Assembly: GCF_004217135.1 (NCBI RefSeq)
Contig: NZ_SHKK01000001.1
Coordinates: forward strand, 1,178,001 to 1,242,000
Source of the DNA: Micromonospora violae
GTDB taxonomy: Bacteria; Actinomycetota; Actinomycetes; Mycobacteriales; Micromonosporaceae
DNA length: 64,000 bases
Direction: 5' to 3'
Below, in pieces: positions 1 to 18,950 of this stretch. The notes under the pieces are model-generated. The model ran no database searches. It was given only the letters and a program-made list of their open reading frames with translations, and was not told the DNA's origin. Within the stretch, counting starts at the first letter, position 1; the number at the start of each line of letters is the position of its first letter. The position numbers were made by a program, and so were the translations under genes.

Positions 1-2248
1 GCCGCTGGACAACTCGTTCACCTATCCTCGCGTGTCACCGGGCGTGCGGGCGTACGTCATCGACTCCGGAATCAATCTGACCCACACCGAGTTCGCCGGG
101 CGGGCGGTGTCCGGCTGGGACTTCACCGACAACGACGCCAACGCCGCTGACTGTCGGGGGCACGGTACCCACGTCGCCGGCACGGTCGGCGGCACCACCT
201 ACGGGGTGGCCAAGAACGTGCAGTTGGTGGCCGTACGCGTCTTCGACTGCGACGGCCGCGGCACCGCCTCGAATGTTCTTGCCGGGGTCGACTGGGTGAC
301 CGGCGACCATGACCCTGGTGAGTTGGCCGTGGCGAACATGAGCCTCGGCGGCCCGTCGTACGCGCCCATGGTCGACGCCGTGCGGCGGTCGATCGCGGAC
401 GGCGTCACCTACGTGGTGGCCGCGGGCAACGAGAGCGCCGCCGACGCGTGTTCCTACACCCCGGCCTCCGTCCACGAGGCGATCACCGTCGCCGCCACCG
501 ATGCCACCGACGCCCGCGCATCGTTTTCCAACATCGGTACGTGCGTGGACCTGTTCGCGCCGGGCGTCGACATCACCTCGGCCTACGTCGGCAACAACAC
601 CGAAACCCGCACCGCCTCCGGAACCTCGATGGCCACCCCGCATGTCACCGGGGCGGCGGCGTTGATCCTGGCCGACAACCCCACCTACACCCCGACGCAG
701 GTGACCCAGGAACTCCTGGCCGACGCCACCCCCGGCGTGGTGACCGATCCGGGCGTCGGCTCACCAAACCGGCTGCTCCACGTCGACGCCACCACGCCGG
801 CCAACGACTTCGCACTGACCGCCACCCCCGCCAGCGGCACCGTCACCGCCGGCAACACCATCTCCACCACCATCGCCGCAACCGTCACGAACGGCGCGGC
901 CCAACCGGTCTCCCTGGTGGCCCACGGCCTACCCGACGGCGCCGTCGCCACATTCCAGCCCGCGAGCGTCTCCTCCAACGACAGCACCACCCTGACCATC
1001 AACACAACGTCGACAACCATGGCCGGCGATTACACCATCACAGTGATCGGCACCGGGACCGGTGCGACCCGCGCGACGGCATTCCAGCTACACGTCAACG
1101 ACCGGGCCGGCTGCGTCGGCTCGAACGGCACCGACACGGCGATAACCGAGAGCACGAGCGCTCTGGTCCCCATCACGATCACCGACTGTCCCGGCGCCGC
1201 CGCTGGCAACAGCACCATCGAGCTGCACATCGACCATTCCGGCATCGGAGACCTCGACATCCGGCTGATCTCACCCGCCGGCACCTGGTATTACCTGCTG
1301 GACCGCACCGGCGGCAACAGCGACGACATCGACTACACCTTCACCCACGACCTGTCGTCGGAGACCGCGAACGGCACCTGGACGCTGTGGCTCAACGACC
1401 TTCTGCACTCGGGCACCGGGTTTCTCGACTCGTGGCGGATCAACCTCGCGGGCGCCGACCTGCCGGCACCAGCGTGCGGTGGCCGCACCACCACCAACCT
1501 ACGGATACCGGCCGCCGGCACGGTCGAATCGTCAATCAGCGTGGCCGACTGCGGCCTGGTGCCGTCGACCAGGAGCTACATCGAGCCCAACATCCGCCAC
1601 CAGTACGGCCGAGACCTCCGAGTCTCCCTCATCGCGCCGGACGGGCAGGCAGTCCTGCTCAAGGACGCCTACGTGGGGTCGTACCGAGCAAACGTCCGCG
1701 AAACCTTCATCACCGATCTGTCAAGCAAGCCCACAGTCGGCACCTGGAAACTGCGGGTCGAGAACGTCGCCAACTATGAAGGCACGTTCGAAGGCTGGAA
1801 GCTGACCCTCGACGGCGGCACCACACCATCCCCCACCACGCCGCCTCCGACGACGCCTCCCCCCACCACGCCCCCTCCGGCGACGCCTCCCCCCACCACG
1901 CCACCGCCCACCACGCCCCCTCCGACGACGCCTCCCCCCGGCGGGAGCCCCGCCTGCACCGCCGTCTACTCCGTGCAGGACCAGTGGACCGGTGGGTTCG
2001 TCGCCAACGTCAATGTCACCGCAGGAGCCGCCGCGCTGACCGGCTGGCGGGTGACCCTCAACCTGCCCGGCGGCGCCTCGGTGACCTCGCTCTGGAACGG
2101 TGTCACCAGCGGCACCAGCGGGACCATCACCGTCGCGAACCAGAGCTACAACGGACGGCTGGCCGCAGGTCAGACTGCCAGTTTCGGATTCCAGGGCACC
2201 GGAAACGGCAACGGCGCCACCGTCACCTGCACCGGAAGCTTGAGCTGA
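1..2248 (+). CDS. Secreted subtilisin-like (S8) protease with two P-domains and a C-terminal CBM2, 5' end outside window
   Basis: The reading frame is open from the first bases (PLDNSFTYP upstream of the first GTG at 32), so the start, signal peptide and propeptide lie outside the window. Counting from the GTG at 32, the catalytic triad is visible: Asp11 in VIDSGI, His44 in GHGTHVAG and Ser199 in GTSMATPH. Two proprotein-convertase P-domain-like beta modules follow (about residues 370-473 and 489-595), then a Pro/Thr linker (about 600-640). The last ~95 residues resemble a family 2 carbohydrate-binding module ([16 protein letters not shown] through the Cys near the end). The enzyme should be an extracellular endoprotease tethered to cellulose or chitin. 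The family assignment is secure; the substrate is unknown. The CBM2 on a protease is unusual compared with its usual place on glycanases. Confidence 0.93.
1829..1945 (+). repeat. Pro/Thr linker-coding tandem repeat
   Basis: Degenerate short repeats encode [13 protein letters not shown] units between the second P-domain and the CBM2. Similar DNA occurs in the chitinase at about 53350-53455. This is an interdomain spacer in a secreted enzyme, not a CRISPR array or regulatory repeat. Confidence 0.7.
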
Positions 2249-2377
2249 GCGGTCTCGGAGTACCGGCACACGTACACATGCCGGCGAGGTCCTGCCGCAC
2301 CCATCGGGGCACGATGATCTCGAATGTCGGTCGTGGATGGCAGAATCCCGCTCACTGCGCGGCGGGAGGAGATCAAC

Positions 2378-3253
2378 ATGGGCTGGCTGGCGGCCGGTGC
2401 CGACTACGAGGTGAGCCTGGAACGCGGGAAGGTGATCGCGCGTAACCGCCAGGGCAGGCTGCTCAAAGGCCTGCCGAAGGCGTTGCGTGACACCGACATG
2501 GTCGTCGGCTTGCGACAGCTCTCGGAGTGGCTGAAGCGGCACGAGGTTTCCTGCCGGCAGGAGGTTGAGCAGTGGATGGTGCGGTCGCTGCCCGTGCCGA
2601 CCACCGTGATCTGCGAGGTGTGGGCAGACGAGGCATGGCGTACGTCCCTGCGTGATCTGGTCGTCGTGCCGATCGACGGTGCGGGGCGATGGGACACCGA
2701 CCGCGCGGGGCTGCTGCGTGACGCGGACCCCGACAAGGGCCTCGGTGTGGTGGACCTGGACGGCGAGAGCGGCCGGCTCACCGCCGTGCAGGTCGTCCTG
2801 CCGCACCCGGTTCGTCTGCCTGATCTGGCAGATCTGCGGGAGTTCGCGGCGGACCTGGGGGTGCGGCAGGAGACGTTGCAGTTGTTCCGCGAGGTGTGGG
2901 CGCTGCCCGAGTCACTCGACGAGCGGCGGCGCGACCTGCTCCGATACGCCGGGGGCCGCTACAAGGAGTTGCGCCACGTGCAGGCGCGGGCGACGTCGGC
3001 GGGCTACCGCGTGCAGGGCGGCGCCGCGTCCGTGCGGGTGTGGGAGGACGGCGTCCCGGTGGTCGCGTCGGTGTGGATCGGCGAGGGCGATCCACTGTAC
3101 GAAACCGAGACCGGCCCGCTCTATTTCACCGGTCCGGAGGGGGAGGCGGTGGCGTTGGCGGCTGTAGGGCCGGTGGTGTGGTCGGAAGGAATGCGGATGG
3201 CGGCGAATCTTCACGCCGGACGGGTTGTGGACGAGGACGGTGAGCGGGCGTGA
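2378..3253 (+). CDS. DUF4132-like protein, first gene of the MoxR/VWA/SWIM operon
   Basis: 291 aa. An upstream ATG at 2324 is possible, but the ATG at 2378 has a GGGAGGAG ribosome binding site 6-7 nt before it and begins MGWLAAGADYEV, so I chose it. The C-terminal half (from about residue 140: an LPDLADLREF stretch, then LQLFREVWALPES and RYAGGRYKELRHV) resembles the DUF4132 domain at the C-terminus of E. coli YehI/MolR; this is from memory of the family pattern. The protein has no signal peptide or membrane segment, so it is cytoplasmic. Its stop codon overlaps the next start by 4 nt (GTGA). The neighbours are those of the yehI-yehQ type cluster, which supports the assignment. Biochemical role is unknown. 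Confidence 0.72.
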   Translation: MGWLAAGADYEVSLERGKVIARNRQGRLLKGLPKALRDTDMVVGLRQLSEWLKRHEVSCRQEVEQWMVRSLPVPTTVICEVWADEAWRTSLRDLVVVPIDGAGRWDTDRAGLLRDADPDKGLGVVDLDGESGRLTAVQVVLPHPVRLPDLADLREFAADLGVRQETLQLFREVWALPESLDERRRDLLRYAGGRYKELRHVQARATSAGYRVQGGAASVRVWEDGVPVVASVWIGEGDPLYETETGPLYFTGPEGEAVALAAVGPVVWSEGMRMAANLHAGRVVDEDGERA

Positions 3254-6200
3254 GTGAGACGCTGTTGGAGGCGGGGGCGATCCTGCCTGGTGGTGAGGCG
3301 CGGACCGGGCGTGATGTGGTGGCCGCGCGTCGCTACACCCATCCGGCGCTCACCGGTCGGACCGTCGTCCGTCTGGCTGGGGCGGCCCTCGGCGAGGCCG
3401 AGGATCTGTCGATGGAGTTCCTCGGCTTCAGCCGTACCGCCGAACCGACGCCGGTGGGCACGGCCCGGCGGCAGTCGCTCGGGTTTCCGGCCTGGGCGTT
3501 GATCAATGATCCGGCGAATGGTCGGCACGCGCTGGCGATGGTCAAGGACATGGCCAGGCTTGCGCGAAGCGCCGCTTCCAAACCGGGTAACGCCCGCGAT
3601 GGTTATCAGCAGCTTGCTGCCCGACTGGGTGCGGCGGCACCGCATTTCCTACCGACGTTCTGGGAGGAGGCCGGGCGGGCGTTCCGCGCCGCCGACAATC
3701 CCCGGATGGCCGGCGGCTGCTTCGCCGAGGCCCGGCGCGCCGAGCAGGTGCACGGGCTGCCGGTGGACGAGGAGCGGTTGCGGGAGGTGCATCTGGAGTT
3801 CGCCTTCGCGGGTGCGCTGACGGCGAAGATGCTGACCGAGTACTCCCGCTCGGTCGCGGCTCGGCGGCCGGCGCCCGAGGCGTACGAGCTGGTACGGACC
3901 CTGGCCATTCGTCGCGTCGCCGGCGGGCTGCCGCCGTATGCCGGGATGGCCGAGGACCTGCGGCGGCTGGCGAAGGCGGCCGGCGTGGACGTCGAGGAGC
4001 AGGCCGAGGCGGTGATCCGGGAGCTGCTGGCGTTCCCCGCGATGACCCGCTCGAGCGAGGCCGTGTGGAAGGCGTACCGCAAACCCCTGCTGCGGCTGGC
4101 CAAGCGTGACCCGGCGGTGCGCGCGCGGTTGGCGGAGATCCTCCCCGAGCCGCCCGGCTGGTCCACCGACGTCACCGACTTCTGGCTGGAGCTGCTGGAC
4201 GCGGCGGGCACACTCGATCTGCTGCGTGACGAGGCGGCGACGGTGTCCGCGGCGCGGTGGCTGGAGCGGCTGATGGCGCTGCGGGAACGACGCAGCCGGC
4301 GTCGTTGTGAGCGGCTCATCCGCGTCGTCGCGGACCTGGCGCCGCGGCTGCGGGCGGAGGGCCGGCCGCTGACGTTGTGGACGACCTTCGCTCACCGGGC
4401 CGACCTGGACGTTCTCGACGTGTGTCTCGCGGGTGGGGTACCGGTGGTGATCGACACCGACAGCGGTGCGTTCAACGTGTCTCCCTGGGTGCACGACGTC
4501 GGCCCCGGCCGGCGGGACCTACGCGCCGTCGCCGCCGACCCCGGGTGTCGGGTGCTGCTGGCACGGGGGGCCGCCGACGCCCTGTCGGAGCTGCACAACA
4601 GGCAGGGGTCGGGGCCACTGCCGGCGCGGTTGGTCACCGAGACGCTGGGCGTGGCCGGCCTGCGGGAGGTGCTGGCCGAGCTGCTCGTCGAACGGGCTGC
4701 CCGGGTGCGGGAGGGCACCGTGATCGGCCTGGACGAGGCGCTGTCCCAGCTCGCGGCCGTGTGGTCGCCCGCCGGTGTGGCGCTGGCACCGGACGCGTTC
4801 ACCGCGATGGCGAAGGTCGACGTGCCTGGGGTGCTCGCCCGGTCACTGCGGGCCGGTCTGGTGGCGGAGCTGTCCTGGCCGGCCTACGAGCAGGTGGCCG
4901 AGGACAAGCTCGGTCGACGCTTCGGCGACGCTTGGCCGCAGTTGGTGGTGCACGACAACCGGACCGCACATGTCGTCGACGTCGACGACGACGTTCCGAT
5001 CAGTGAACACATCTTCCGGTTTCCGCCCTCGGACAGCCCGTACACGCGCAACTCCCACGCCGACGCCACCTGCCGCCTGGTCAACGGGCAGCTTCTGGTC
5101 ACCTGGTACAGCACCGGCGGCCGGCTCGTCGGCTACTGGTCGGCGGCCCCGGATGAGCTGATCGACCCCGGCCAACCGACCGGCCACGCCCCGTGGGGCC
5201 GCCGGTCGCTGCCGATGCCGTTGCCCGATGGTGCGATGACCACGGGCAGTCGGCCCTGGCACGCCGGGGACACCCGCAGTCCGGCCGCGACATTTCCGGT
5301 CGCTGGTGACGGCGTCTCGTTCTGGCGGTGCGAACAGCCCGCCGACCCGATGACCAATGAGCGGCGCTGGCGGGAGTACGACCCGGCGACGGGCGAGGGC
5401 GGCCGATACAGCCTGCCCGCGTTCTTTGCCGCCGACCTGCCCCCGGGTGCGACCCTCCTCGCTGACCTGTGCGAGTTGCGGCCGGCACCGGCACAGTTCG
5501 CCTCGTCGCCACTCGGCTGGCGCGACGGGCTGGTCGGGTGGCGGGTGACCCGCCTGCCGGACGGAACGCAGGTGGGGGAGGGGATCGACGGTCGGCGGGT
5601 GTCCTGGCACTCGAGCGCGGTCCGGGTCAGCCGCAACCCGTTCCACAGCGACGCGCTGGTCGCCGGCCTCCGGCTACCGGGCAGCGACGTCGTGCTACCG
5701 GTGACCGGGCGACCCCATCACCGGGCCGAGTTGGAGCTGACCGTGTGGAGCGCCGACGGCCGAGACCCGGTGGACCGGTGCGGACCAACCCAGTACCTTC
5801 CGCCGCTGGCCTGGTGGCACGCACTGGCCCCGCGCGATGCGTCGGGCTCGGCCCGACTGCGGCGGCTCGACGCCACCGATGCGGCCCGACTGATGGCGAT
5901 CGACGACACCGTCACGAAGTCCACCGAGATCAACGCGGTGGCGCTGGCCCTCGTCACCGAAGTGCTGACGGAGGTGACCGACCCGGTGCTGCGTACCGCC
6001 GTGGCGGAGAAGGTGGTGCGCGCGGTACGGCTGCGCCGGCGGTTGGAAGGTGTGCCGCAGCTGTTGGCGGCCGAACCGGTCGACGAAACCACTGTCGACG
6101 CCGTCGCCGACGATCTGCTGCGCACCGCCTGGTCCGGGCTGTTGCCGGCGTCACGGTTCACCTACTACAGCGGCAGTGCCCAGACGCGGCGGGAGATCCT

Positions 6201-7986
6201 TCGCCAGATCGGCGCGGTCGCCGATCTCCTCACGGCCGGGACGGTCGAGGACGTACCGCAGGCCAGCCCAACATGGGTGGACGCGCTCGGCGGGCTCGGC
6301 GCCCTGGCCGTCCGCGCCGCCGCGCCGGTCACCAGTGAGCAGGAGCGCTCAGCGCTGGCCCAGTTGCTGTCCACCCTGGCCGGCACCGTTCTGGCCGACC
6401 CGGCACAGGCGGTGCGGGTGCTCACCGCGACCTGGGACGAGGCGCCCCCGGAGAACCAGCGGGTCATCCAGCGCGACGGTGCCCAGGTCACGGTGCTGCT
6501 GCCAGAACATGGCACCACCTGGTACGCCGGGCGAGGCAAGCAGTGGCGGCGCACGGCCGTGCAGTTGTCCCCGAACGGGCAGTTCACCCCGCCGTCCGGT
6601 GCCACCGTCGAGGCGGAGACCGTCGCGGCCGGCTGGCGGGGCGCTGATCGCATCAAAGCGTTCTGCCGGCTGCTCACCGAGCAGGGCCCGGCCCCGTGGC
6701 GCGCGGAAGGCGTCGACGACCTGGTACAACGCACGGGCATGACGCGAGCCGAGGCCGCCCTGCTGCTGGCGGGTCTTCCCGGCATCGATGACTGGCAGGC
6801 GAACTTCCTCACCGCCGACCAGCGGCGCATCCTCGGGGTGACCAGCACCCAGGCGCGTACCGCCCGCGACGCGTTGAAGTCTCTGTCGTACGGGCAACGG
6901 ATCGCGCTGGTGGACGCGACGATGCCGAAGGATCCGGCCGATCTGTGGCGCAACGGCCCGGACGTGGACCGTCTCGCAACGGCCTGGCTGGCACTGCGTG
7001 GCACCCGCGTCGTCATCGGCGAGCAACTGCTTGCCGACGCCACCCGGATCCTGCCCACGAACCGAGCGGCCGACATCCTGCAGACGATCGCCGACCCGGC
7101 ACCCGGAAGCTGGCTGACCACCGATGGGGAGAGCCAGCCCGGCGACTGGGGCCGACTGGAGACCACCGCCACCGGCGGAACCCCGTTCGACGGCGCGCAC
7201 CTGTACGAGTGCACGGTGGCGCTGCTGTGGCTGGCCTACCAGCTGCCGTGGGGCGACCCGATGCGCGACGCTCTGCCCCGGGCGTTGGAGCTGCTGCGGC
7301 AGCGGTTGCGTAACCCGCAGCTGCTGATCGGGGGCGGACGACACGAGGTGAACGAGCCACCCCAGGTGGGACCGGCGCTCGTGGTCGGGCACACCTTCGG
7401 GGACATAGTCACGCACCACCTCGCCCCGGCCCGCCTCAGCGGACCGCAGGACCCGGCGATCAGTTGCATCTCCAGCCCGGTCGCGGACGCGCTGCGGCTG
7501 GTGCTCTCACCGGACATCGCCGCCACACTGTCCAGCCCGGACGGGGCCAGCGGCGAACACCGCGACCCCCGGGTCGGCGCACCCGACCTGGTCGACACGG
7601 TCGCCGCTCACACCGGCCTCGACCGGGACTCGGCCGGCTACTACCTGCAGCTGCTCGCCCTGCCGAACCCCACCGATGTCAACGTGCGGGCCTGGAACGC
7701 ATGGAAGTCCGCCGGCCTCAGGCACGCCCAGGCGGCGCTGCTCGACTCCGGACTGGTGGTGGCAGGCAAGCGGGAACGGGCCGGCCGCGGCGTCTTCCTG
7801 CCCGGCGGCTGGCTCGCGGCGAAGAACCCCAACCCGCCCATGGAGAGCTGGAAGCAGCCGCTGTACCTGTTCCTCAACGGGTTGACCCTGGTCAACCGCG
7901 CGACGCCGGAGCTGTTCCGCGCCGCGTGGGACCGCGTCAGCGCCGGTGACAAACCCCGCTACCTCGACCTGCAGGAGAAGGCGTGA
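3250..7986 (+). CDS. Large (1578 aa) protein of unknown function in the MoxR/VWA/SWIM operon
   Basis: GTG start overlapping the previous stop (GTGA), which implies translational coupling. The protein is soluble: no signal peptide, and no convincing membrane segment. Much of residues 130-500 is Leu/Ala/Arg-rich helical sequence of the kind found in repeat scaffolds. The middle (about 590-880) is richer in Trp, Gly and Pro and looks beta-rich. The C-terminus is more conserved-looking (AWNAWKSAGLRHAQAALL, then a Lys/Arg-rich GRGVFLPGGWLAAKNP stretch). I recognise no catalytic motif or named domain. Position between the DUF4132-like gene and the MoxR ATPase suggests it is the large scaffold or substrate component of the same complex. 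Its stop overlaps the moxR start by 4 nt (GTGA). Confidence 0.9.
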   Translation: MSETLLEAGAILPGGEARTGRDVVAARRYTHPALTGRTVVRLAGAALGEAEDLSMEFLGFSRTAEPTPVGTARRQSLGFPAWALINDPANGRHALAMVKDMARLARSAASKPGNARDGYQQLAARLGAAAPHFLPTFWEEAGRAFRAADNPRMAGGCFAEARRAEQVHGLPVDEERLREVHLEFAFAGALTAKMLTEYSRSVAARRPAPEAYELVRTLAIRRVAGGLPPYAGMAEDLRRLAKAAGVDVEEQAEAVIRELLAFPAMTRSSEAVWKAYRKPLLRLAKRDPAVRARLAEILPEPPGWSTDVTDFWLELLDAAGTLDLLRDEAATVSAARWLERLMALRERRSRRRCERLIRVVADLAPRLRAEGRPLTLWTTFAHRADLDVLDVCLAGGVPVVIDTDSGAFNVSPWVHDVGPGRRDLRAVAADPGCRVLLARGAADALSELHNRQGSGPLPARLVTETLGVAGLREVLAELLVERAARVREGTVIGLDEALSQLAAVWSPAGVALAPDAFTAMAKVDVPGVLARSLRAGLVAELSWPAYEQVAEDKLGRRFGDAWPQLVVHDNRTAHVVDVDDDVPISEHIFRFPPSDSPYTRNSHADATCRLVNGQLLVTWYSTGGRLVGYWSAAPDELIDPGQPTGHAPWGRRSLPMPLPDGAMTTGSRPWHAGDTRSPAATFPVAGDGVSFWRCEQPADPMTNERRWREYDPATGEGGRYSLPAFFAADLPPGATLLADLCELRPAPAQFASSPLGWRDGLVGWRVTRLPDGTQVGEGIDGRRVSWHSSAVRVSRNPFHSDALVAGLRLPGSDVVLPVTGRPHHRAELELTVWSADGRDPVDRCGPTQYLPPLAWWHALAPRDASGSARLRRLDATDAARLMAIDDTVTKSTEINAVALALVTEVLTEVTDPVLRTAVAEKVVRAVRLRRRLEGVPQLLAAEPVDETTVDAVADDLLRTAWSGLLPASRFTYYSGSAQTRREILRQIGAVADLLTAGTVEDVPQASPTWVDALGGLGALAVRAAAPVTSEQERSALAQLLSTLAGTVLADPAQAVRVLTATWDEAPPENQRVIQRDGAQVTVLLPEHGTTWYAGRGKQWRRTAVQLSPNGQFTPPSGATVEAETVAAGWRGADRIKAFCRLLTEQGPAPWRAEGVDDLVQRTGMTRAEAALLLAGLPGIDDWQANFLTADQRRILGVTSTQARTARDALKSLSYGQRIALVDATMPKDPADLWRNGPDVDRLATAWLALRGTRVVIGEQLLADATRILPTNRAADILQTIADPAPGSWLTTDGESQPGDWGRLETTATGGTPFDGAHLYECTVALLWLAYQLPWGDPMRDALPRALELLRQRLRNPQLLIGGGRHEVNEPPQVGPALVVGHTFGDIVTHHLAPARLSGPQDPAISCISSPVADALRLVLSPDIAATLSSPDGASGEHRDPRVGAPDLVDTVAAHTGLDRDSAGYYLQLLALPNPTDVNVRAWNAWKSAGLRHAQAALLDSGLVVAGKRERAGRGVFLPGGWLAAKNPNPPMESWKQPLYLFLNGLTLVNRATPELFRAAWDRVSAGDKPRYLDLQEKA

Positions 7987-9098
7987 ACGCCCGACAGATC
8001 GACCCGCCGGAGCACCTGTACGCCGACGAGCTGGCGTTCCTGGCTGCCGCCGACCGTGGCCCCCGCCCGCCCGGTTGGAAGCTGACCCCCCAGGCGGTGG
8101 TCACGTTCATCGCCGGTTCCGCCGGCCGTCCCGTGCAGGGCCCCGACGGTCGTCAGGTCACCATCGCGGCGAAGTTCGTGGGGGAGCGGGCCCTGGTCGA
8201 GCGGTGTGTCGTGACCCTGGCCGGAGAACGGGGCCTGCTGCTCGTCGGCGAACCGGGCACCGCCAAGTCGATGCTGTCCGAGTTGCTCGCCGCCGCCGTG
8301 TGCGGCACAAGTGCCCTGGCCGTGCAGGGTACGGCCGGCACGACCGAGGAACAGCTGCGCTACGGCTGGAACTACGCGCTCCTGCTGGCCAAGGGGCCGT
8401 CCCGGGAGGCACTGGTGCCCTCGCCGGTGCTCACCGCGATGACCACCGGTGCCGTCGCCCGGGTCGAGGAAATCACCCGCTGCCTGCCCGAGGTGCAGGA
8501 CGCGCTGGTGTCGATCCTGTCCGACCGTCGGTTGGTCCTGCCCGAACTCCCCGACGACTCCGTCGCCTACGCGGCTCCCGGCTTCTGCGTCATCGCCACG
8601 GCCAACCTGCGGGACCGGGGCGTATCCGAGATGTCCGCGGCGCTGAAACGGCGGTTCAACTTCGAGGTGGTGCCTCCGATCGCCGACTTCGACGCCGAGG
8701 TCGCCCTCGTCACCCGGCAGGCCCGCGCCACCGTGGAACGGGTCGGCGCCGCGTACACGGTGGACGAGGCGGTGCTGGAGACCCTGGTGACCGCCTTCCG
8801 CGACCTGCGCACCGGCAGCACCGTCGAGGGCTGGGAGGTGGAACGTCCGTCCTCGGTCATGAGCACCGCCGAGGCGGTCGCCGTCGCCGCGTCGATTGGC
8901 CTGTCCACCGCGTACCTGCCCGGCCCGGACCCGTTGTCGCTGCTGCCCGGGCACCTGGTGGGTGTCGTACGCAAGGACGACCCGGCCGACCATGCGCGGC
9001 TGTTGGCGTACTGGGACGGCGCCCTGCGCCGCCGCGCCGAGGCCGGCGGCCGGATGTGGCGGCAGCTCTGGGAACAGCGGGACGTCCTGCGTGACTGA
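7983..9098 (+). CDS. MoxR-family AAA+ ATPase (YehL-like)
   Basis: 371 aa. Walker A is GEPGTAKS at residues 89-96, after LLLV. The Walker B region reads VARVEEITR (158-166), where most MoxR proteins have a DEINR-like sequence, so the first acidic position is shifted or altered. Sensor 1 is FCVIATANLRDRG (201-213). Length and layout fit MoxR ATPases, which usually act with a VWA-domain partner to remodel or activate other proteins in the cytoplasm. The VWA partner here is the next gene, and the two overlap by 8 nt. The GTG start overlaps the previous stop. It corresponds to YehL of E. coli. The target of the remodelling is unknown. Confidence 0.92.
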   Translation: MNARQIDPPEHLYADELAFLAAADRGPRPPGWKLTPQAVVTFIAGSAGRPVQGPDGRQVTIAAKFVGERALVERCVVTLAGERGLLLVGEPGTAKSMLSELLAAAVCGTSALAVQGTAGTTEEQLRYGWNYALLLAKGPSREALVPSPVLTAMTTGAVARVEEITRCLPEVQDALVSILSDRRLVLPELPDDSVAYAAPGFCVIATANLRDRGVSEMSAALKRRFNFEVVPPIADFDAEVALVTRQARATVERVGAAYTVDEAVLETLVTAFRDLRTGSTVEGWEVERPSSVMSTAEAVAVAASIGLSTAYLPGPDPLSLLPGHLVGVVRKDDPADHARLLAYWDGALRRRAEAGGRMWRQLWEQRDVLRD

Positions 9099-12000
9099 CG
9101 ACAGCACAGCTGAGGACCCGCGCGCCGCCGTCGCGCGTCTGAGCGACACCGGCCGGGTCACCCTGATCGGAGTGCGGCATCACTCGCCGGTGCTCGCCGC
9201 GGCGATCCCCGCCCTGCTGGACACGGCAGCCCCGGACGCGGTGCTGGTCGAGTTGCCCACCGACATGCAGCCGTGGCTGACCTGGTTGGCGCACCCCGAC
9301 ACCCACGCGCCGGTCGCCCTGGCCGCCGCCAGCGGTGACGAGGGCGGACCGCTCGCCTTCTACCCGTTCGCCGATTTCTCCCCGGAGCTCGCCGCGCTGC
9401 GGTGGGCGCAACGGCGCGGCGTGCCGGCCCACTGCTGCGATCTTCCGCTGAGCGACCCGGCGTGGCAGGAGCGCTCGGCAGCCGTCGGACCGCGGATCAG
9501 CGGGTACGTCGACAACGTGCGAGCCACCCTGACCGGTCGGAGCGGAGACGACCTGTGGGACCGCTGGGTCGAGGCGGCGGCTCCCGGCTCGCCGCCCGAG
9601 GCGGTACGCCGGTCGGCGCTGGCCGTCGGCTGGGCGCTTCGCACCGATGCCGCCGACGGCATCGACGTCCTCGATCAGCGGCGCGAGGCGTGGATGCGGC
9701 AGCAGATCGCGGCGACCCCCGGCCGTGTCGCCGTCGTCGTCGGCGCCTTCCACGCCCCCGCCCTGACCACACCGGAACACCCCGCACCCACCACACCACC
9801 GACACCGGATGCCGAGGCGCCACCACCTACCCCGATCATCTCCCTGGTGCCGTACTCGTTCGACCTGCTCGATGCGCGGTCCGGCTATCCCGCCGGGATC
9901 CGTGACCCTCGCTGGCAGCAGGCTGTCCACGATGCTCACGCCGACCCCCGCACGCTGGCCGCCCACCTGCGCGGTTTCGCCGTCGAGATCACCCGGCACC
10001 TGCGAGAGCAGGGACACCCCACGGGACCGGCGGAGGCCGCCGAGATCACCCGGCTCGCCCACGATCTGGCCCGACTGCGGAACCTGCCCGCCGCCGGACG
10101 CGGTGAACTCGTCGAAGCGTTGCAGTCCGTCCTCGCCCAGGGCGAACCGGCCGGCCGAGGCCGAGCGGTCGCCGCCGCGATGCAGCACACCCTGATCGGG
10201 CAGCGCCGCGGTCACCCCTGCCCGGACACACCCGTCTGCGGGCTGACTCCCGCGACGACGGCCCTGCTGCGCGAGCTGCGCCTTCCCGGCCCCGGTGATC
10301 CGCCCCGCACCGTTCGGCTTGATCCACTGCGTACCCCACTCGACCGGCGACGAGAGGCCGCCCTGCAGCGACTGCTCGCCTGCCAGGTGCCCTACGCCGA
10401 GCCCGCCGAGCCCCCCACGGCCGACACCCTCACCACCCGCTGGCGGCTGCACTGGCAGCCCGGCACCGACGCCGGGCTGGCCGCCGCCAGCCCACACGGT
10501 GTCACCCTCGCCCAGGCCGCCGCCGGCATGCTGAGCACCCGGCGTCGCCGAGAGGTGACCAACGGCGGCCCCACCGCCGCTCAAGTTGTCGCCGGGCTCG
10601 CCCGCGCCGCTGCCTGCGGCCTACCCGACGCCGTCGACGTCCGCCTCGCCGACCTGCACACCGCCGTGACCGGCACCGCCACCCTCGCCGACCTCGCCAC
10701 CGCGAGCCAACTGCTCCAGCGGCTGCACCGGGGGCACATCCCCGCCACCCCGTCACCACCGGCCGGCCTCGACGAGCACCTGACGCACCTGCACGCCGCG
10801 GCAGTCCGCGCCATTGACGGGCTCGCCGGATCCACCGACCCCGGGGACGCCCGCGCGCTGCTCGACCTTGTCCGGCACGCCGACGACAGCGGCCACCTGC
10901 TGCGCCTCGGCCACGCCGTCCGCCGCCTCGCCCGCGACGGATCACCACTGATGCGGGGTGCGGCCCACGCCGTCGAGGTACTGCTCGGCATCGCCGCCCC
11001 CCACGCGTTCGGCGTGGTGCTGGCGTCCTGGACCGAGATGCCGGCCGCAGAATGCACCGACCGGCTCCGCGGAGCGCTCAGCCTCGCCGGCGCCCTGCTC
11101 GAAGCCGGTGGGGACACGCTGGCCCCGCTGCTGAAGACCATCGACGGCTGGGACGACGACCAGTTCATCCGCCGGCTGCCAGCGCTGCGCGGCGGCTTCG
11201 ACGCGTTGAGCCCCGCCGACCGGGACCGCGTGCTGGACACCGTCCGTCACCGCATCGGTGACGTCGACGCGACGGTGAGCGTCGCACCGAACCTGCTCGC
11301 CGACTGGCTCGCCGTCGACCAGTCGGGACGGCAGGCCCTGACCGCCCTCGGACTGCCGCCGGGCAGAGACGACCACACCGCCGAGACGTCGGCTCCACCA
11401 CCGCCCCCGACGGAACCCCGCCCGGCTCACCGAGCGCACACGCTGCCCGCCGCGCAGCGTTGGCGGCTGCTGCTCGGTCGCCGCCCCGACGACCTGCCAC
11501 CGCACGCCCGCCGACTCGCCACCGCACTCGACGAGCTGTACGGCAGCGGCAGGGGAGAGGGCTCCCACACCGCAGTCGGACCTAACGGTGGACGGCAACC
11601 CGCATACCCGCAGGTGCGGGAGTGGGCCGACGACCTCGAAGCGCTGTTCGGCGCCGCCGTACGCGACGAGGTGCTCGCCCGTGCCGCCGAACGCGGACGT
11701 GCCGACGCCCTGCTCACCATCGCACCCGAAGACGTCCGGCCCTCGGTGGAACTGCTGCACACCGTCCTGGCGTTGGCCGGCGGGCTTCCCGAGGCGCGGC
11801 TCAACCGACTGCGACCACTCGTCGCCAGGCTCGTCACCGAGCTTACCGAGCAGTTGGCCCGACAGATCCGACCGGCACTGACCGGGCTCGCCACACCACG
11901 ACGTACCCGCCGACCCACCGGGCGCCTCGACCTCGGCGCCACCGTGCACGCCAACCTGCACACCGCACACCTCGACTCCCACGGCGCCGCGCAGATCCGC

Positions 12001-12537
12001 CCCGAACGGTTCGTCTTCCGCAGCCGCGGTCGACGCAGCGTCGACTGGCAGGTCATCCTCCTCGTTGACGTATCCGGGTCGATGGAACCGTCCACGATCT
12101 GGGCGGCGCTGACCGCGTCCGTCCTGGCCGGCGTGCCGGCCCTACGAACCCACTTCGTCACCTTCTCCACCGAGGTCGTCGACCTCACCGACCGGGTCGC
12201 CGACCCGCTCAGCCTCCTGTTGGAAATCAGCGTCGGCGGTGGCACCCACATCGCCGCCGCCCTGGGCTACGCCCGGCAACTCGTCACCACGCCCAGCCGC
12301 AGTCTCGTCGTGCTCGTCAGCGACTTCGAGGAGGGACATCCCATCGGGGGGCTACTGGCCGCCGTCCGGGCACTCGCCGACGACGGTGTGACCCTTCTCG
12401 GCTGCGCCAGCCTCGACGACCGAGGTCAACCCCGCTACAGCACCGCCGTCGCCGGGCAACTCGTGGCCGCCGGGATGCCCGTCGCCGCGCTGAGCCCCAC
12501 CGAACTGGCCCGCTGGATCGGAGACCAGGTCCGATGA
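9091..12537 (+). CDS. DUF5682 (ChaN/EreA-like)-VWA fusion protein
   Basis: 1148 aa. The frame is open further upstream, but the first sensible start is the GTG at 9091, overlapping the moxR stop (GTGACTGA), which gives VTDDSTAED. The N-terminal domain carries GVRHHSP (27-33) and VELPTD (about 53-58), typical of DUF5682, a family distantly related to erythromycin-esterase/ChaN-like folds. A long helical middle follows (about 330-900), containing low-complexity Pro/Thr stretches. The last ~170 residues are a von Willebrand A domain with an intact MIDAS: DVSGS (Asp993, Ser995, Ser997), GGGTHIAAAL and VLVSDFEEG. In E. coli the two halves are separate proteins (YehM and YehP). It probably binds the adjacent MoxR ATPase. 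The stop overlaps the next start (ATGA). Confidence 0.9.
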   Translation: MTDDSTAEDPRAAVARLSDTGRVTLIGVRHHSPVLAAAIPALLDTAAPDAVLVELPTDMQPWLTWLAHPDTHAPVALAAASGDEGGPLAFYPFADFSPELAALRWAQRRGVPAHCCDLPLSDPAWQERSAAVGPRISGYVDNVRATLTGRSGDDLWDRWVEAAAPGSPPEAVRRSALAVGWALRTDAADGIDVLDQRREAWMRQQIAATPGRVAVVVGAFHAPALTTPEHPAPTTPPTPDAEAPPPTPIISLVPYSFDLLDARSGYPAGIRDPRWQQAVHDAHADPRTLAAHLRGFAVEITRHLREQGHPTGPAEAAEITRLAHDLARLRNLPAAGRGELVEALQSVLAQGEPAGRGRAVAAAMQHTLIGQRRGHPCPDTPVCGLTPATTALLRELRLPGPGDPPRTVRLDPLRTPLDRRREAALQRLLACQVPYAEPAEPPTADTLTTRWRLHWQPGTDAGLAAASPHGVTLAQAAAGMLSTRRRREVTNGGPTAAQVVAGLARAAACGLPDAVDVRLADLHTAVTGTATLADLATASQLLQRLHRGHIPATPSPPAGLDEHLTHLHAAAVRAIDGLAGSTDPGDARALLDLVRHADDSGHLLRLGHAVRRLARDGSPLMRGAAHAVEVLLGIAAPHAFGVVLASWTEMPAAECTDRLRGALSLAGALLEAGGDTLAPLLKTIDGWDDDQFIRRLPALRGGFDALSPADRDRVLDTVRHRIGDVDATVSVAPNLLADWLAVDQSGRQALTALGLPPGRDDHTAETSAPPPPPTEPRPAHRAHTLPAAQRWRLLLGRRPDDLPPHARRLATALDELYGSGRGEGSHTAVGPNGGRQPAYPQVREWADDLEALFGAAVRDEVLARAAERGRADALLTIAPEDVRPSVELLHTVLALAGGLPEARLNRLRPLVARLVTELTEQLARQIRPALTGLATPRRTRRPTGRLDLGATVHANLHTAHLDSHGAAQIRPERFVFRSRGRRSVDWQVILLVDVSGSMEPSTIWAALTASVLAGVPALRTHFVTFSTEVVDLTDRVADPLSLLLEISVGGGTHIAAALGYARQLVTTPSRSLVVLVSDFEEGHPIGGLLAAVRALADDGVTLLGCASLDDRGQPRYSTAVAGQLVAAGMPVAALSPTELARWIGDQVR

Positions 12538-14312
12538 CCCTGCCCGCCGTCGCACCACACGTTGTCGCCGACGCCGTCGCCGCCCTTCCCGCCCGGCTGC
12601 GGTCCAAGCTCGACCAGGCTCTCGAGAAGCACCCGACCTGGACCATCACCACGGCCGACTCTGGCGCGACGATCACCATCGACGACCACGTCACCGTCAC
12701 CCTCACCACCCCGGTCGACACCGCCGAACGAGCCGCCTGCAACTGCCTGCTCGCACCACGCTGCCTGCACCGGGCGGCGGTGCTCAGCGCCGCCCCCGTC
12801 CTGACCACGCACCCCCACCACCCGGCCGCCGCCGGATCGGACGGGGCCACCGCCGAGGTCGTCGTGACCAGCGAAGCCGACCCGCCCGATCCCGCCGCAC
12901 CGTCCGCCACCGCCGACGAGAAGGCCGCCGCCGCCCAGGTGCGCGACGTCGTTGCGCAGATCCTCGAACACGGGGTGGCCGGCGCCGGCGCGGTCACCCA
13001 GGCGGATCTGCTCCGCGCCATCCACCAGGCACGCGCCATCGGGCTGCCCCGGCTGGCGACAGCCGCGACCAGAGTGGTCGAACAACTCCGCGCAGCCCGC
13101 CGGAGCACCCCCGGGTTCCGGTTGGCCGACCTCACCGAAGATCTGCGCGAGGCACTTCTCGTCTCTCACCTTCTGAGCGAAGGTATCGGCGACCAGCGAG
13201 CCGCCCGGGGAACGAGCCGGCGCGGCTACGGCCCGGTCGGCGATCTGCACCTGTACGGGCTGTGCACCGAGCCGCTGCGCACCACCACCGGACACGTTGG
13301 CGCGATCAGCTACCTGACCGATGGTGATTCGACCATCTGGAGCCTGGCGCAGGCACGCCCCGGCGATGGCGACACGGCCCGCAACGCCGCTCAGGCAAGC
13401 GTGAACCTCGGCGACGTGACGATCAGCCACCGCGAGTTGGACGGTGCCGGGATCATCGTCATCAACGCCCATGCGTCCGTCGACCGGCGCCTCAGCCACG
13501 GCAGGGCAGTGCAGGCCGTACGAACCACGGGCCGCACCTGGCACGAGGAACCAGCCGACGCCCTCTGGCGGCAACCGATTCCCGAACAGGCCGCCCGCTG
13601 GCTGAACGCCTTCCAAGTCGCCCAACACGAGCGGCCCGCCGGTCACGACCTCGCCTTCCTCGACGGCGTCCTCGCCGCCGACCAGCGGGGCCTACTCCTG
13701 CGGACGGCGCAACTGCCTGGCCCGGTCATCGTCCTCGCTCCCCACGATGATCCGGTGCTCCCGTACGTCGCGAACCTGCGACTGCTCGCCGCCCACGCCA
13801 CCGGCCTGCCGGTACGGATGATCGGACGGTTCCACGGACCCCGCCAGGTCCACGGTCTCGCCGTTGCCGGGCCCTGGCTGCCCGACCGCTTCGGCGGACA
13901 CGTCAACCTTGGCGTCGACCAGCTACAGCGCGCCGACCTACCCGGCGCCGAAACCACGGAGCCTCTCGGTAACGATCAACCTCAACCGCCGCTGCATCTC
14001 CTCACCCACCACCTGCAACGAGTGGTCGCCGCCGGCCGCGCTGTCCTGGTGCCGGACGTCGACCGGGACACGCAGACGCTCCTGGACGCCCAACTGCCGA
14101 CAGCCGCGTCCGTGCTGCGCGAACTACGGCGCGCGGGCCACCGACGTAGCCGCGACGCGTTCGGCCGCTTGCACCAGCAGGACTCCACAGCCCTCGCGGT
14201 GGCCTGGCTGACCGCTGCGGCCTACCAGTACGCCGCAGCGACAGCCGTGACCGCAGACTCATGGCAAGCCAACCGGGGTCGCGAGGTAGACGACAATGCC
14301 ACCACCGTTTAG
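12534..14312 (+). CDS. SWIM zinc-finger protein (YehQ-like), last gene of the operon
   Basis: 592 aa, ATG overlapping the previous stop (ATGA). The SWIM motif is CNCLLAPRCLH: Cys69, Cys71, Cys77 and His79 (C-x-C-x5-C-x-H), a zinc-binding element used in DNA or protein binding. An Ala/Pro-rich stretch follows, then a mainly helical region, then a long C-terminal domain with no motif I can name. It has no secretion signal. It corresponds to YehQ, which closes the same cluster in E. coli. No strong terminator hairpin is visible just downstream; the following 300 bp are transposon and LRV debris on the other strand. Confidence 0.9.
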   Translation: MTLPAVAPHVVADAVAALPARLRSKLDQALEKHPTWTITTADSGATITIDDHVTVTLTTPVDTAERAACNCLLAPRCLHRAAVLSAAPVLTTHPHHPAAAGSDGATAEVVVTSEADPPDPAAPSATADEKAAAAQVRDVVAQILEHGVAGAGAVTQADLLRAIHQARAIGLPRLATAATRVVEQLRAARRSTPGFRLADLTEDLREALLVSHLLSEGIGDQRAARGTSRRGYGPVGDLHLYGLCTEPLRTTTGHVGAISYLTDGDSTIWSLAQARPGDGDTARNAAQASVNLGDVTISHRELDGAGIIVINAHASVDRRLSHGRAVQAVRTTGRTWHEEPADALWRQPIPEQAARWLNAFQVAQHERPAGHDLAFLDGVLAADQRGLLLRTAQLPGPVIVLAPHDDPVLPYVANLRLLAAHATGLPVRMIGRFHGPRQVHGLAVAGPWLPDRFGGHVNLGVDQLQRADLPGAETTEPLGNDQPQPPLHLLTHHLQRVVAAGRAVLVPDVDRDTQTLLDAQLPTAASVLRELRRAGHRRSRDAFGRLHQQDSTALAVAWLTAAAYQYAAATAVTADSWQANRGREVDDNATTV

Positions 14313-15133: not shown

Positions 15134-15191
15134 TGACAGATGTCGGCGTGTCGGTCGTCAGTTGTGCTCGCTGGTCGGCATAGTTGGTGTC

Positions 15192-15515
15192 GTGTCCACC
15201 CACCGGATCGGCCGGCTGATCATGGTCGGGAATCTGGTCACGGGAACGGCGGCCGAGGCCGGGGAGACCGTGGTGTACGCGCGGGTGTCGTTAGCCGATC
15301 AGAAGGCGGATCTGGACCGTCAGGTCGCCCGGGTGTCCGTGTGCGTCACCGGGCAGAAGCTCGGCGTGGATCGGGTGGTCACCGAGGTCGATGACGATCT
15401 GGTTTGCGACGTCACCGAGGTCCTGACGTCGCTGTGCGCCCGCCTGTGCGGTCGTCGCGCCGCCGCGAGCCGCGCCCGCCGCGCAGTCGAAGCCGCCACC
15501 GGGGCTCGGGTGTGA
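15192..15515 (+). pseudogene. IS607 TnpA serine recombinase, truncated and internally deleted
   Basis: The frame contains HRIGRLIMVG (end of the MerR-like DNA-binding segment), then VVYARVSLADQKADLDRQVA, the start of the serine recombinase fold with its YARVS nucleophile motif. It then jumps from VDRVVTEV directly to DLVCDVTEVLTSLCARLCGR, the C-terminal end of normal IS607 TnpA. About 80 residues of the catalytic core are missing, and the N-terminal helix-turn-helix is lost as well. The stop overlaps the tnpB start by 4 nt. The protein should not be able to transpose the element. Confidence 0.72.
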
Positions 15516-16891
15516 AGACGATTCAGGCGTATCGGTTCGCCCTCGACCTCACCCCGGGTCAGGAACGTGACGTGCTCGCGCATGCTGGGGCGGCCCGGGT
15601 CGCGTTTAACTGGGCGCTGGTGAAGGTGAAGGCGGTCATGGACCAGCGGACCGCGGAGCGATCGTACGGTGTGCCGGACGAGGCGTTGACGCCGTCGCTG
15701 TCATGGTCTCTTGCTGGGTTGCGCAAGGCGTGGAACGTCGCTAAGCCCGGGGTTGCGCCGTGGTGGGGTGAGGTGTCGAAGGAGGCGTTCAACACCGGCT
15801 TGGATGCCCTCGCGCGCGGCTTGAAGAATTGGGCTGACTCCCGCGGGGGCGCGCGGGCCGGGCGGTCGGTCAGGTTTCCCCGGTTCAAGTCCCGCCGCCG
15901 CAGCACTGCATCAGTGCGGTTCACCACCGGGGCGATCCGGGTCGAGCCCGACCGTATGCACGTGGTGCTGCCGAGGCTGGGTCGGTTGAAGCTGCACGAG
16001 TCGGCCCGCAAACTCGCCCGGCGTGTGGACAACGGCACCGCCCGGATCATGTCCGCGACCGTGCGGCGCGGCGGCGGACGCTGGCACGTGTCGTTCACCG
16101 TCGACGTCGAACGGGCCGAACGCTTCCCTGCCCGGCCGCGGTCGGTCGTTGGCGTGGACGTCGGGATCACGCACCTTGCGGTGCTGTCCACTGGCGAGTT
16201 GGTGGACAACCCGCGCCACCTGGCCGCCGCGCAGCACCGCATGCGCTCGTTGGGCCGGGCGCTGTCACGCAAGACCGGCCCGGACCGGCGTAGCGGAAGA
16301 CGGCCGTCGAAGCGGTGGGAGCGGGCAGCTGCGCGGGCCGGTCGGGCGCACGCCCGGGTCGCTCATCTGCGCCGCGACGGGCTGCACAAGCTCACCACCC
16401 GGCTCGCGCGTGAGTACGCCACCATCGTGGTCGAAGACCTCAACGTGGTCGGGATGCTGGCCAACCGCACGCTCGCCCGGTGCGTCGCTGACGCCGGGTT
16501 CGCGGAGATCCGTCGCCAACTGGCGTACAAGACCAGGTGGAACGGCGGCCGGCTGCTGCTGGCCGACCGCTGGTATCCGTCCTCCAAGACCTGCTCGGGC
16601 TGCGGCACGAGGAAAACCAAACTGGCCCTGTCCGAGCGCGAATACACCTGCCAGGCGTGCGGTCTGGTCATCGACCGGGACCGCAACGCCTCCTTGAACC
16701 TGGCCGCCCTCGCGGCCGAGTTCGACACCGCCGGGAGTGGCCCGGTGGCAGCACGTGGAGCCGACCAGAAGACCCGCGTACGCGGGCAGGTGGCGACGAA
16801 GCGTGAACCCGGCACGGCATCCGCCGGTCAGACCGGGACCGTCCCGCCGCAAGGCAGGACTACCAACCATGTGTTTACTAAAGCGCACTGA
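15512..16891 (+). CDS. tnpB: TnpB RNA-guided nuclease of IS607-type element
   Basis: 459 aa from the GTG at 15512, which overlaps the tnpA remnant stop (GTGA). It starts VKTIQAYRFALDLTPGQE, the usual TnpB N-terminus. RuvC-type residues are all present: Asp216 in VGVDVGI, Glu308 in VVEDLNV and Asp390 in DRDRNAS. A zinc ribbon (CSGCG...CQACG) lies between the last two. Family members are OmegaRNA-guided DNA endonucleases that help the element persist. The guide RNA normally overlaps the 3' end of tnpB and the right end; here only ~10 nt separate the stop from the element edge, so it would lie mostly inside the gene. Transposition would need a TnpA supplied from elsewhere. Confidence 0.93.
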   Translation: MKTIQAYRFALDLTPGQERDVLAHAGAARVAFNWALVKVKAVMDQRTAERSYGVPDEALTPSLSWSLAGLRKAWNVAKPGVAPWWGEVSKEAFNTGLDALARGLKNWADSRGGARAGRSVRFPRFKSRRRSTASVRFTTGAIRVEPDRMHVVLPRLGRLKLHESARKLARRVDNGTARIMSATVRRGGGRWHVSFTVDVERAERFPARPRSVVGVDVGITHLAVLSTGELVDNPRHLAAAQHRMRSLGRALSRKTGPDRRSGRRPSKRWERAAARAGRAHARVAHLRRDGLHKLTTRLAREYATIVVEDLNVVGMLANRTLARCVADAGFAEIRRQLAYKTRWNGGRLLLADRWYPSSKTCSGCGTRKTKLALSEREYTCQACGLVIDRDRNASLNLAALAAEFDTAGSGPVAARGADQKTRVRGQVATKREPGTASAGQTGTVPPQGRTTNHVFTKAH

Positions 16892-18796: not shown

Positions 18797-18950
18797 ATCA
18801 AGCTCAGCATGGATCTGTCATAGATGGCGTGCGATTCCGGCGACGTCCTATGTGGATGCGGTTGTGTGGTGAGCGCCCAGGGGGACCATGCGTAGAGATC
18901 GGTAGCCCTATCGTCTCTGCCACTGCTCCTTGATCGATTGGACGTGTGGC

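Follow-up and report, generated by a model that had tools for sequence, protein, structure and literature searches.

What do five overlapping genes of Micromonospora violae encode, and when would the cell make their products? We analysed a window of 64,000 nt (NZ_SHKK01000001.1, positions 1,178,001–1,242,000; the assembly consists of one contig of 7.14 Mb), in which the five genes occupy positions 2378–14312 on the plus strand. We consider it moderately probable that together, as one operon, they specify a MoxR-VWA machine for protein remodelling that DNA damage induces, and that this operon is an actinobacterial variant of the Escherichia coli yeh cluster. The computed basis for this reading is the conserved gene set and its order, intact motifs of the ATPase and of the metal ion-dependent adhesion site (MIDAS), the relationship to YehL, YehM and YehP, and, upstream of gene 1 in most relatives examined, a motif of the RecA-NDp type. 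The genes are as follows.

2378–3253, plus strand: gene 1, short DUF4132 protein of 291 aa (PF13569, E = 2.2e-26, all 179 model positions)
3250–7986, plus strand: gene 2, 1578-aa protein (profile and AlphaFold; no Pfam family over cut-off)
7983–9098, plus strand: gene 3, MoxR AAA+ ATPase of 371 aa (AAA_5, 1.6e-36)
9091–12537, plus strand: gene 4, DUF5682-VWA fusion of 1148 aa (DUF5682, 9.6e-178; VWA_CoxE, 3.6e-59)
12534–14312, plus strand: gene 5, SWIM zinc-finger protein of 592 aa (motif; Pfam SWIM only E = 0.08)

An initial annotation, made from the sequence alone, had described successive overlaps of 4, 4, 8 and 4 nt. We read the junctions directly and found exactly these: GTGA at 3250–3253 (genes 1/2), GTGA at 7983–7986 (genes 2/3), GTGACTGA at 9091–9098 (8 nt, genes 3/4) and ATGA at 12534–12537 (genes 4/5). 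GC content at third codon positions (GC3) was of coding type in all five frames. The observed five-gene arrangement is thus confirmed as real. For gene 1, the open reading frame finder placed the first ATG at 2324. We preferred the start at 2378 because several relatives start at the same M/V-G-W, and because the promoter motif at 2325–2346 would otherwise fall within the gene.

The domain assignments were checked with profile searches, as had been proposed. DUF4132 (93 bits against a Pfam cut-off of 27), DUF5682 and VWA all scored over their Pfam cut-offs, and SWIM (E = 0.08) stayed below its own with the ligand motif present. Within genes 3, 4 and 5 we located three functional motifs.

8247–8270, plus strand: gene 3 Walker A motif GEPGTAKS, a GXXXTAKS variant (sequence; relatives)
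12067–12081, plus strand: gene 4 MIDAS motif DVSGS, residues 993–997, completed by T1052 and D1078 (alignment)
12738–12770, plus strand: gene 5 SWIM motif CNCLLAPRCLH, C-x-C-x5-C-x-H (motif match)

GEPGTAKS was identical in seven relatives' loci, and the Walker A motif was conserved at at least 93% (79 aligned sequences). In gene 4, DUF5682 covers residues 39–893 and VWA_CoxE residues 922–1143. Its residues were labelled by the MIDAS pattern; D993, S995, S997, T1052 and D1078 were invariant (25 aligned sequences, window included), in agreement with the complete MIDAS noted earlier. The four metal ligands of the gene 5 SWIM motif were likewise invariant (27 aligned sequences, window included). 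Sequence searches of the PDB, run with genes 2 and 4 themselves and with profiles built on them, returned nothing below E = 0.49, and the open-access literature matches listed contained no functional study of DUF5682 or of the five-gene set. By eye, GVRHH, ELP and GxFHA motifs of DUF5682 were suggestive of a TraB/TIKI-type hydrolase. PF01963 (TraB/PrgY/GumN) reached E = 0.01 on gene 4 (16 bits against a cut-off of 26.8) for the window protein only, one of 25 aligned members, and the TraB sequences found (one in 100 genomes) were too few for a profile comparison with DUF5682. We do not claim this assignment.

We compared the operon with the E. coli K-12 region (NC_000913), where a cluster of yehF, yehH, yehI, yehK, yehL, yehM, yehP and yehQ encodes, among others, DUF4132 (yehI), MoxR (yehL), DUF5682 (yehM), VWA_CoxE (yehP) and SWIM (yehQ) proteins. 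The order of MoxR, DUF5682, VWA_CoxE and SWIM is the same in both, with a DUF4132 gene in front. BLAST aligned gene 3 with YehL (46% identity over 371 aa, 3.4e-97) and gene 4 with both YehM (33% over 267 aa, 5.4e-22) and YehP (38%, 1.4e-62). Gene 5 appears to be a distant relative of YehQ, which hhalign matched with 79% probability from a 27-row profile (E = 1.6e-5) and with 2% from a 4-row profile. The match to yehI-yehQ proposed in the initial annotation therefore holds for MoxR, DUF5682, VWA, the DUF4132 domain and, probably and distantly, SWIM, but not gene for gene. YehM and YehP are separate proteins in E. coli, whereas gene 4 fuses them. In YehI, which has 1210 aa, DUF4132 sits close to the C-terminus, whereas gene 1 is short, and the E. 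coli cluster includes the WGR gene yehF. The rest of YehI, beyond DUF4132, had no match in genes 1 or 2, and no counterpart of the 1578-aa protein was detected in E. coli. A relationship between gene 2 and YehI was rejected after BLAST, phmmer and hhalign (9-row and 50-row profiles, with 2 rows only on the YehI side) were all negative. On these comparisons, we class the operon with the yeh-type MoxR-VWA clusters, as a new variant among them.

To what extent do the five genes travel together? In 396 actinobacterial genomes, the gene 2 profile (A2) had matches in 8, and the short DUF4132 form (~95–104 bits) and the full-length DUF5682-VWA fusion (confirmed on the loci) occurred in the same 8. 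Any DUF4132 match was found in 19 genomes (18 over cut-off) and any DUF5682 in 24. Away from the operon, two more gene 2 matches, both partial, were present in two of the 8 genomes. Scanning a collection of 84,980 species genomes yielded 530 pattern matches, 480 of them encoding gene 2 relatives; the best 80 of these 480 were kept, and all counts over 80 loci refer to them. All five genes lay on one strand in 69 of the 80 loci. Contig or locus ends cut 7 of the 11 incomplete loci (L138, L150, L161, L174, L175, L181, L193). The other 4 were true deviations: L134 and L135 had genes 1 and 2 only within the analysed stretch, L142 was without a gene 1 match and L172 without a gene 4 match. Exact 4-nt overlaps, with start codons of relatives guessed by script, were found for genes 1-2 in 48/79, genes 2-3 in 32/79, genes 3-4 in 2/73 and genes 4-5 in 55/72 cases (window included). 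The genes named here rest on homology matches, and relatives' genes were called partly by GC3, at times in a wrong overlapping frame (e.g. L063, L064). The coincidence of three families in 8 of 396 genomes, the complete set at 69 of 80 loci and the recurrent 4-nt overlaps support one conserved operon.

Occurrence within the genus was patchy, with a gene 2 match in 6 of 25 genomes, its own included. Actinobacteria also carry other layouts. In a three-gene set of Streptomyces, DUF5682 and VWA are encoded by different genes and the SWIM gene is divergent. Clusters resembling yeh were found at L067/L112 (one place) and L068, where the YehI-like protein also has a WGR domain, and solitary DUF4132 genes are present as well.

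We then asked when the operon would be expressed. The available part of one report (PMC5656591) gives tTGTCRgtg - 8 nt - TannnT as the consensus of a LexA-independent DNA-damage promoter, and sections of two others (PMC6789036, PMC8223512) describe this type in mycobacteria as RecA-NDp, read by PafBC. The window carries one such candidate.

2325–2346, plus strand: RecA-NDp-like motif TGTCGGT-N9-CAGAAT (relaxed match, 53 bp before gene 1)

This motif (TGTCGGTCGTGGATGGCAGAAT) has the form and spacing of the PafBC/RecA-NDp regulon sites set out in that part of PMC5656591 and differs from them at the −10 element, which is CAGAAT or CACAAT in the window and its nearest relatives. Words of the TTGTCAG and TGTCGG types were enriched upstream of gene 1. 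The strict form of the motif (the published consensus) occurred in 18 of 77 upstream regions against a control mean of 0.3 (maximum 1, 50 draws). The relaxed form (TGTC[AG]G-N10-[TC]A-N3-T), a pattern picked after the sequences were seen, occurred in 56 of 77 against a control mean of 1.1 (maximum 5); since the loci are mutually related, the motif counts cannot be treated as independent. Over the 80 loci, the strict form lay upstream in 19 of 76 and elsewhere only 4 times in 3.8 million strand-bases. The nineteenth site (L127) spans the edge of the stretch used for the 18/77 count. The four sites elsewhere included two that lie 8 and 48 bases inside the called gene 1 start, one that lies 101 bases before a fourth gene 2 copy (L174) and one that is unrelated. 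Among twelve further operons of the same type (L014–L018, L020, L062–L064, L104–L106), 9 had a site of the strict, core or relaxed form at gene 1.

In the M. violae genome, the window site was the sole match to TGTCGGTN9YANAAT in 7.14 Mb (reversed control, 0), and recA matched the relaxed form (CTGTCGGACCTAGCGCCTAGCGT just upstream). The actinobacterial LexA box, CGAAC-N4-GTTCG, was not enriched upstream of gene 1: there were 0/77 exact matches, 1/77 with one mismatch (control mean 1.95) and 20/77 with two (control 22.25). We also inspected 25 other loci of this kind, comprising three-gene sets, yeh-like clusters, weak relatives, solitary DUF4132 genes and a solitary gene 2 relative. The motif lay near the first gene in 13 of them, 9 of these strict, and all 13 were among the 17 loci within the class. 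A relaxed site at L107, ~450 bp upstream, fell beyond the limit used and was not counted. Random 650-base windows of these loci matched the relaxed form in 81/4000 (~2%) and the strict form in 34/4000, real sites included.

Does the motif mark damage genes? In Streptomyces coelicolor, RecA-NDp promoters are described for recA and a UV-inducible macrodomain gene in part of one report (PMC5087735). Eight Streptomyces genomes, selected for holding such systems, contained 221 strict sites versus 1 for the reversed pattern. Thirty of the 221 were followed to the next gene, which was then Pfam-scanned; certain genes recur among the 30, from several genomes. At 12 of 30 sites, a share without a matched control, the next gene belonged to a DNA-repair or repair-helicase family: UDG (two), UvrD, UvrA, UvrB, RuvC (two), the ExoVII large subunit, Ogt, a RecD2 HHH domain, a RadA-like protein (our reading of its domains) and a DEAD helicase. 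Genes of this kind of system followed 3 of 30 sites (SWIM at two, DUF4132 at one). The remaining 15 comprised YjbR (4), sigma factors (3), TnpB-type genes (2), ribosomal S6, SMI1/KNR4, an amine oxidase and three genes without a family. The YjbR-family genes are those of L219, L220, L227 and L228, and the sigma factors (L211, L218, L222) carry an NTF2/SnoaL-like domain. At L204 and L212, both in one Streptomyces genome, the strict motif precedes the two TnpB-type genes, which suggests that some TnpB-type elements use the damage promoter.

Related genes also appear under damage control in other phyla. We take E. coli molR to be the yehF-yehH stretch. A CTG-N10-CAG site with 13/20 consensus matches lies 27 bp before yehF; it is weak by itself, one of 16 such sites in the 25 kb E. 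coli region, another of which scores the same. In the available parts of two sources, molR is listed as LexA-regulated (PMC11039860, PMC4576408). A Deinococcus study reports strong upregulation of dr2173 (WGR domain) and of the drA0165-drA0166 operon (DUF4132 in DRA0166) on DdrO depletion, but none in irradiated cells deleted for irrE. The same study reports the molybdate genes moeA and moeB as unchanged when the DUF4132 gene responded.

The part played by the large protein was addressed with structure prediction, as had been proposed. Gene 2 had no Pfam family over cut-off. AlphaFold models of residues 1–885 and 865–1578, built separately, each had a mean pLDDT of 90.4, and three regions could be delimited, the first resembling tetratricopeptide repeats (TPR).

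3520–4902, plus strand: gene 2 TPR-like alpha-solenoid, residues ~91–551 (AlphaFold secondary structure, Foldseek)
4927–5799, plus strand: gene 2 beta-propeller-like region, residues ~560–850 (AlphaFold, Foldseek)
7537–7983, plus strand: gene 2 conserved C-terminal region, residues 1430–1578, possible winged helix (conservation; Foldseek)

Foldseek matched the solenoid region to the KLC2 TPR (probability 0.99, E = 4.8e-3) and the propeller region to UTP15, WDR4 and Met Sema (probability up to 0.99, E from 4e-3 to 1.6e-2), in both cases with low TM-scores. The second half was mainly helical and had no PDB fold match at E ≤ 1e-3; the winged-helix hint comes from weak MarR-like matches (probability 0.5–0.6, E > 1). 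Against a viral library, the N-terminal half gave repeat and WD40-type look-alikes only, none at E ≤ 1e-3. Gene 2 is thus predicted to combine a TPR-like solenoid with a beta-propeller. The initial annotation had offered scaffold or effector as its role. A scaffold or adaptor fits the modelled fold, and an effector found no support.

Among the fetched loci with species names, the closest gene 2 relative belonged to a Micromonospora, with 62% in its best segment. Five of the 80 loci carried tandem copies of gene 2: three each in L119 and L143, two each in L120 and L121, and four in L174. In most tandem paralogue pairs, the N-terminal 250 and C-terminal 150 residues were more alike than the middle. 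The L119 pairs were 79–82% identical at the N-terminus and 64–74% at the C-terminus versus 53–58% in the middle, and identity in one L174 pair was 97% for the C-terminus and 55% for the middle. L143 pairs 1-3 and 2-3 were an exception, with N-termini (48–49%) barely above the middle (39–50%). One L121 copy was without the propeller segment. Conserved ends around a divergent middle suggest a core machine with interchangeable recognition parts.

Four loci deserve mention beside gene 2. In Actinocorallia populi (L174:2-24810), the fourth of the four tandem copies has its own strict RecA-NDp-type motif (L174:16102). L134 and L135 are from Actinokineospora and hold only genes 1 and 2 in the analysed stretch; the DUF4132 and TPR-propeller proteins may thus function as a pair with no MoxR-VWA genes close by. 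A solitary 1416-aa gene 2 relative (L102:6932-11182, plus strand) has a relaxed motif 52 bp upstream and no MoxR match in 20 kb. By eye it had looked like a fusion to a DUF4132 piece; Pfam gave no support and we dropped this idea.

Put together, these observations allow a working scheme, in which we infer induction, biochemistry, client choice, tethering and a role in repair. Upon DNA damage, a PafBC-type activator would switch the operon on. In the scheme common to MoxR-VWA pairs, as outlined in PMC7159879, the VWA domain holds a client peptide, and the MoxR ring spends ATP on reshaping the client. By analogy, the MoxR ring here would be coupled to the VWA domain of gene 4 and would pull on a bound client with ATP. 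The TPR-plus-propeller protein, in one to four divergent tandem copies, and the DUF4132 protein would recruit or recognise that client, and the SWIM protein would act as a tether to nucleic acid or to a complex on DNA. As client, our simplest guess would be a stalled or damaged-DNA nucleoprotein complex.

Several observations weigh against a damage-inducible machine. The window carries the relaxed form only, with CAGAAT rather than TAnnnT as its −10, and the relaxed pattern was chosen with the sequences in view. The strict form occurs once in the window genome, before an unrelated gene. Three of the twelve further operons (L014, L015, L016) had no motif at gene 1, and two of these (L015, L016) are from the window's own genus. 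The motif was found in 0 of 8 loci from other actinobacterial classes, and 4 of the 17 within the class were also without it. For Streptomyces venezuelae, one study (PMC9380542) reports that the PafBC motif of M. smegmatis did not come up as conserved in a first search. Promoter control tells when an operon is made, not its function, and diversified tandem copies with a patchy occurrence also fit defence.

The initial annotation had pointed to MoxR-VWA ternary sets proposed on comparative grounds as conflict systems. In a counter-invader (anti-phage) system of this kind, the large protein would sense the invader, the MoxR-VWA switch would free an effector, and damage induction would arm the system. 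Besides the tandem copies and the patchiness, it counts in favour of this reading that the 80 loci come largely from filamentous actinobacteria. The ternary systems of Kaur et al. 2020, as presented in part of that paper (PMC7159879), join a MoxR-vWA pair to VMAP, iSTAND, FtsH or a propeller C-terminal to the vWA. The operon shares the core pair, gene 3 has the same GXXXTAKS P-loop as the FtsH and beta-propeller types, and a TPR-plus-propeller architecture, as predicted here for gene 2, is also described there for a third component. However, the operon has DUF5682, DUF4132 and SWIM instead of VMAP, iSTAND or FtsH. None of the latter three was among the Pfam matches of the five proteins (the Pfam coverage of each was not checked), and DUF5682, DUF4132 and SWIM do not occur in the main text of Kaur et al. 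The bpMoxR Pfam model scored 22.3 bits against a cut-off of 27. Gene 4 ends with its VWA domain (922–1143 of 1148 residues) and lacks the C-terminal propeller of the beta-propeller type. PADLOC returned no match, and neither it nor Pfam recognised an effector domain, large parts of genes 2 and 4 being without an assigned function. With the defining third component unseen by Pfam and domain layout, and because the promoter motif is of the damage type, a DNA-damage role is favoured over a conflict role, and we regard the anti-phage reading as unlikely, if worth keeping in view.

A second alternative is a maturation chaperone for cofactor insertion or enzyme assembly, with stress regulation incidental. 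CoxD-CoxE, NorQ-NorD and RavA-ViaA likewise pair a MoxR ATPase with a VWA co-chaperone, the VWA domain of gene 4 is of the CoxE type, and where the client of a MoxR-VWA pair is known, the pair is mostly a chaperone of assembly or metal insertion, according to PMC7159879 and to abstracts. No client enzyme is recognisable among the five genes here (neighbours beyond the five were not surveyed), which add DUF5682, DUF4132, SWIM and a large TPR-propeller protein. The promoter motif is of the DNA-damage type, and moeA and moeB of Deinococcus reportedly did not respond when the DUF4132 gene did. These data make a chaperone role quite improbable.

That the upstream motif is an ordinary promoter element with no DNA-damage meaning fits its −10-like TAnnnT, the degenerate window copy and the 15 of 30 Streptomyces sites that precede genes without an evident repair role, but the excess over the reversed pattern in Streptomyces, the 12 of 30 sites before repair or repair-helicase families (without a matched control) and the rarity of the strict motif elsewhere in the same loci leave this explanation very doubtful.

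The yeh genes of E. coli have had no known function so far. If a damage-inducible remodelling machine is the correct reading, a MoxR-VWA AAA+ machine would be added to bacterial DNA-damage biology, and it would be unusual for a single ATPase to work with varying numbers of one large adaptor. A broader proposal, which we put forward as possible rather than probable, is that the yeh-type MoxR-DUF5682-VWA-SWIM-DUF4132 module is a so far unrecognised cross-phylum damage-response machine, placed under unrelated damage regulators (a PafBC-type motif in actinobacteria, LexA in E. coli, DdrO in Deinococcus), to which actinobacteria would have added expandable TPR-propeller adaptors, one ATPase serving several clients.

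We also recorded the neighbours of the operon in the window. Immediately 5' of it, a subtilase with P-domains and a cellulose-binding module is encoded at 32–2248 (plus strand). Downstream lies an OrfB_IS605/TnpB-type gene with a Cas12f1-like TNB domain (15404–16891, plus strand), preceded at ~15190–15450 by a stretch that resembles, by eye, part of a serine-recombinase gene. A 1912-aa protein at 18930–24668 (plus strand) had a weak RHS-repeat match (E = 0.0066, below cut-off). Further along, a 1442-aa NACHT/STAND-type protein (38642–42970, minus strand) stands beside a LuxR-type AAA regulator (35645–38599, minus strand).

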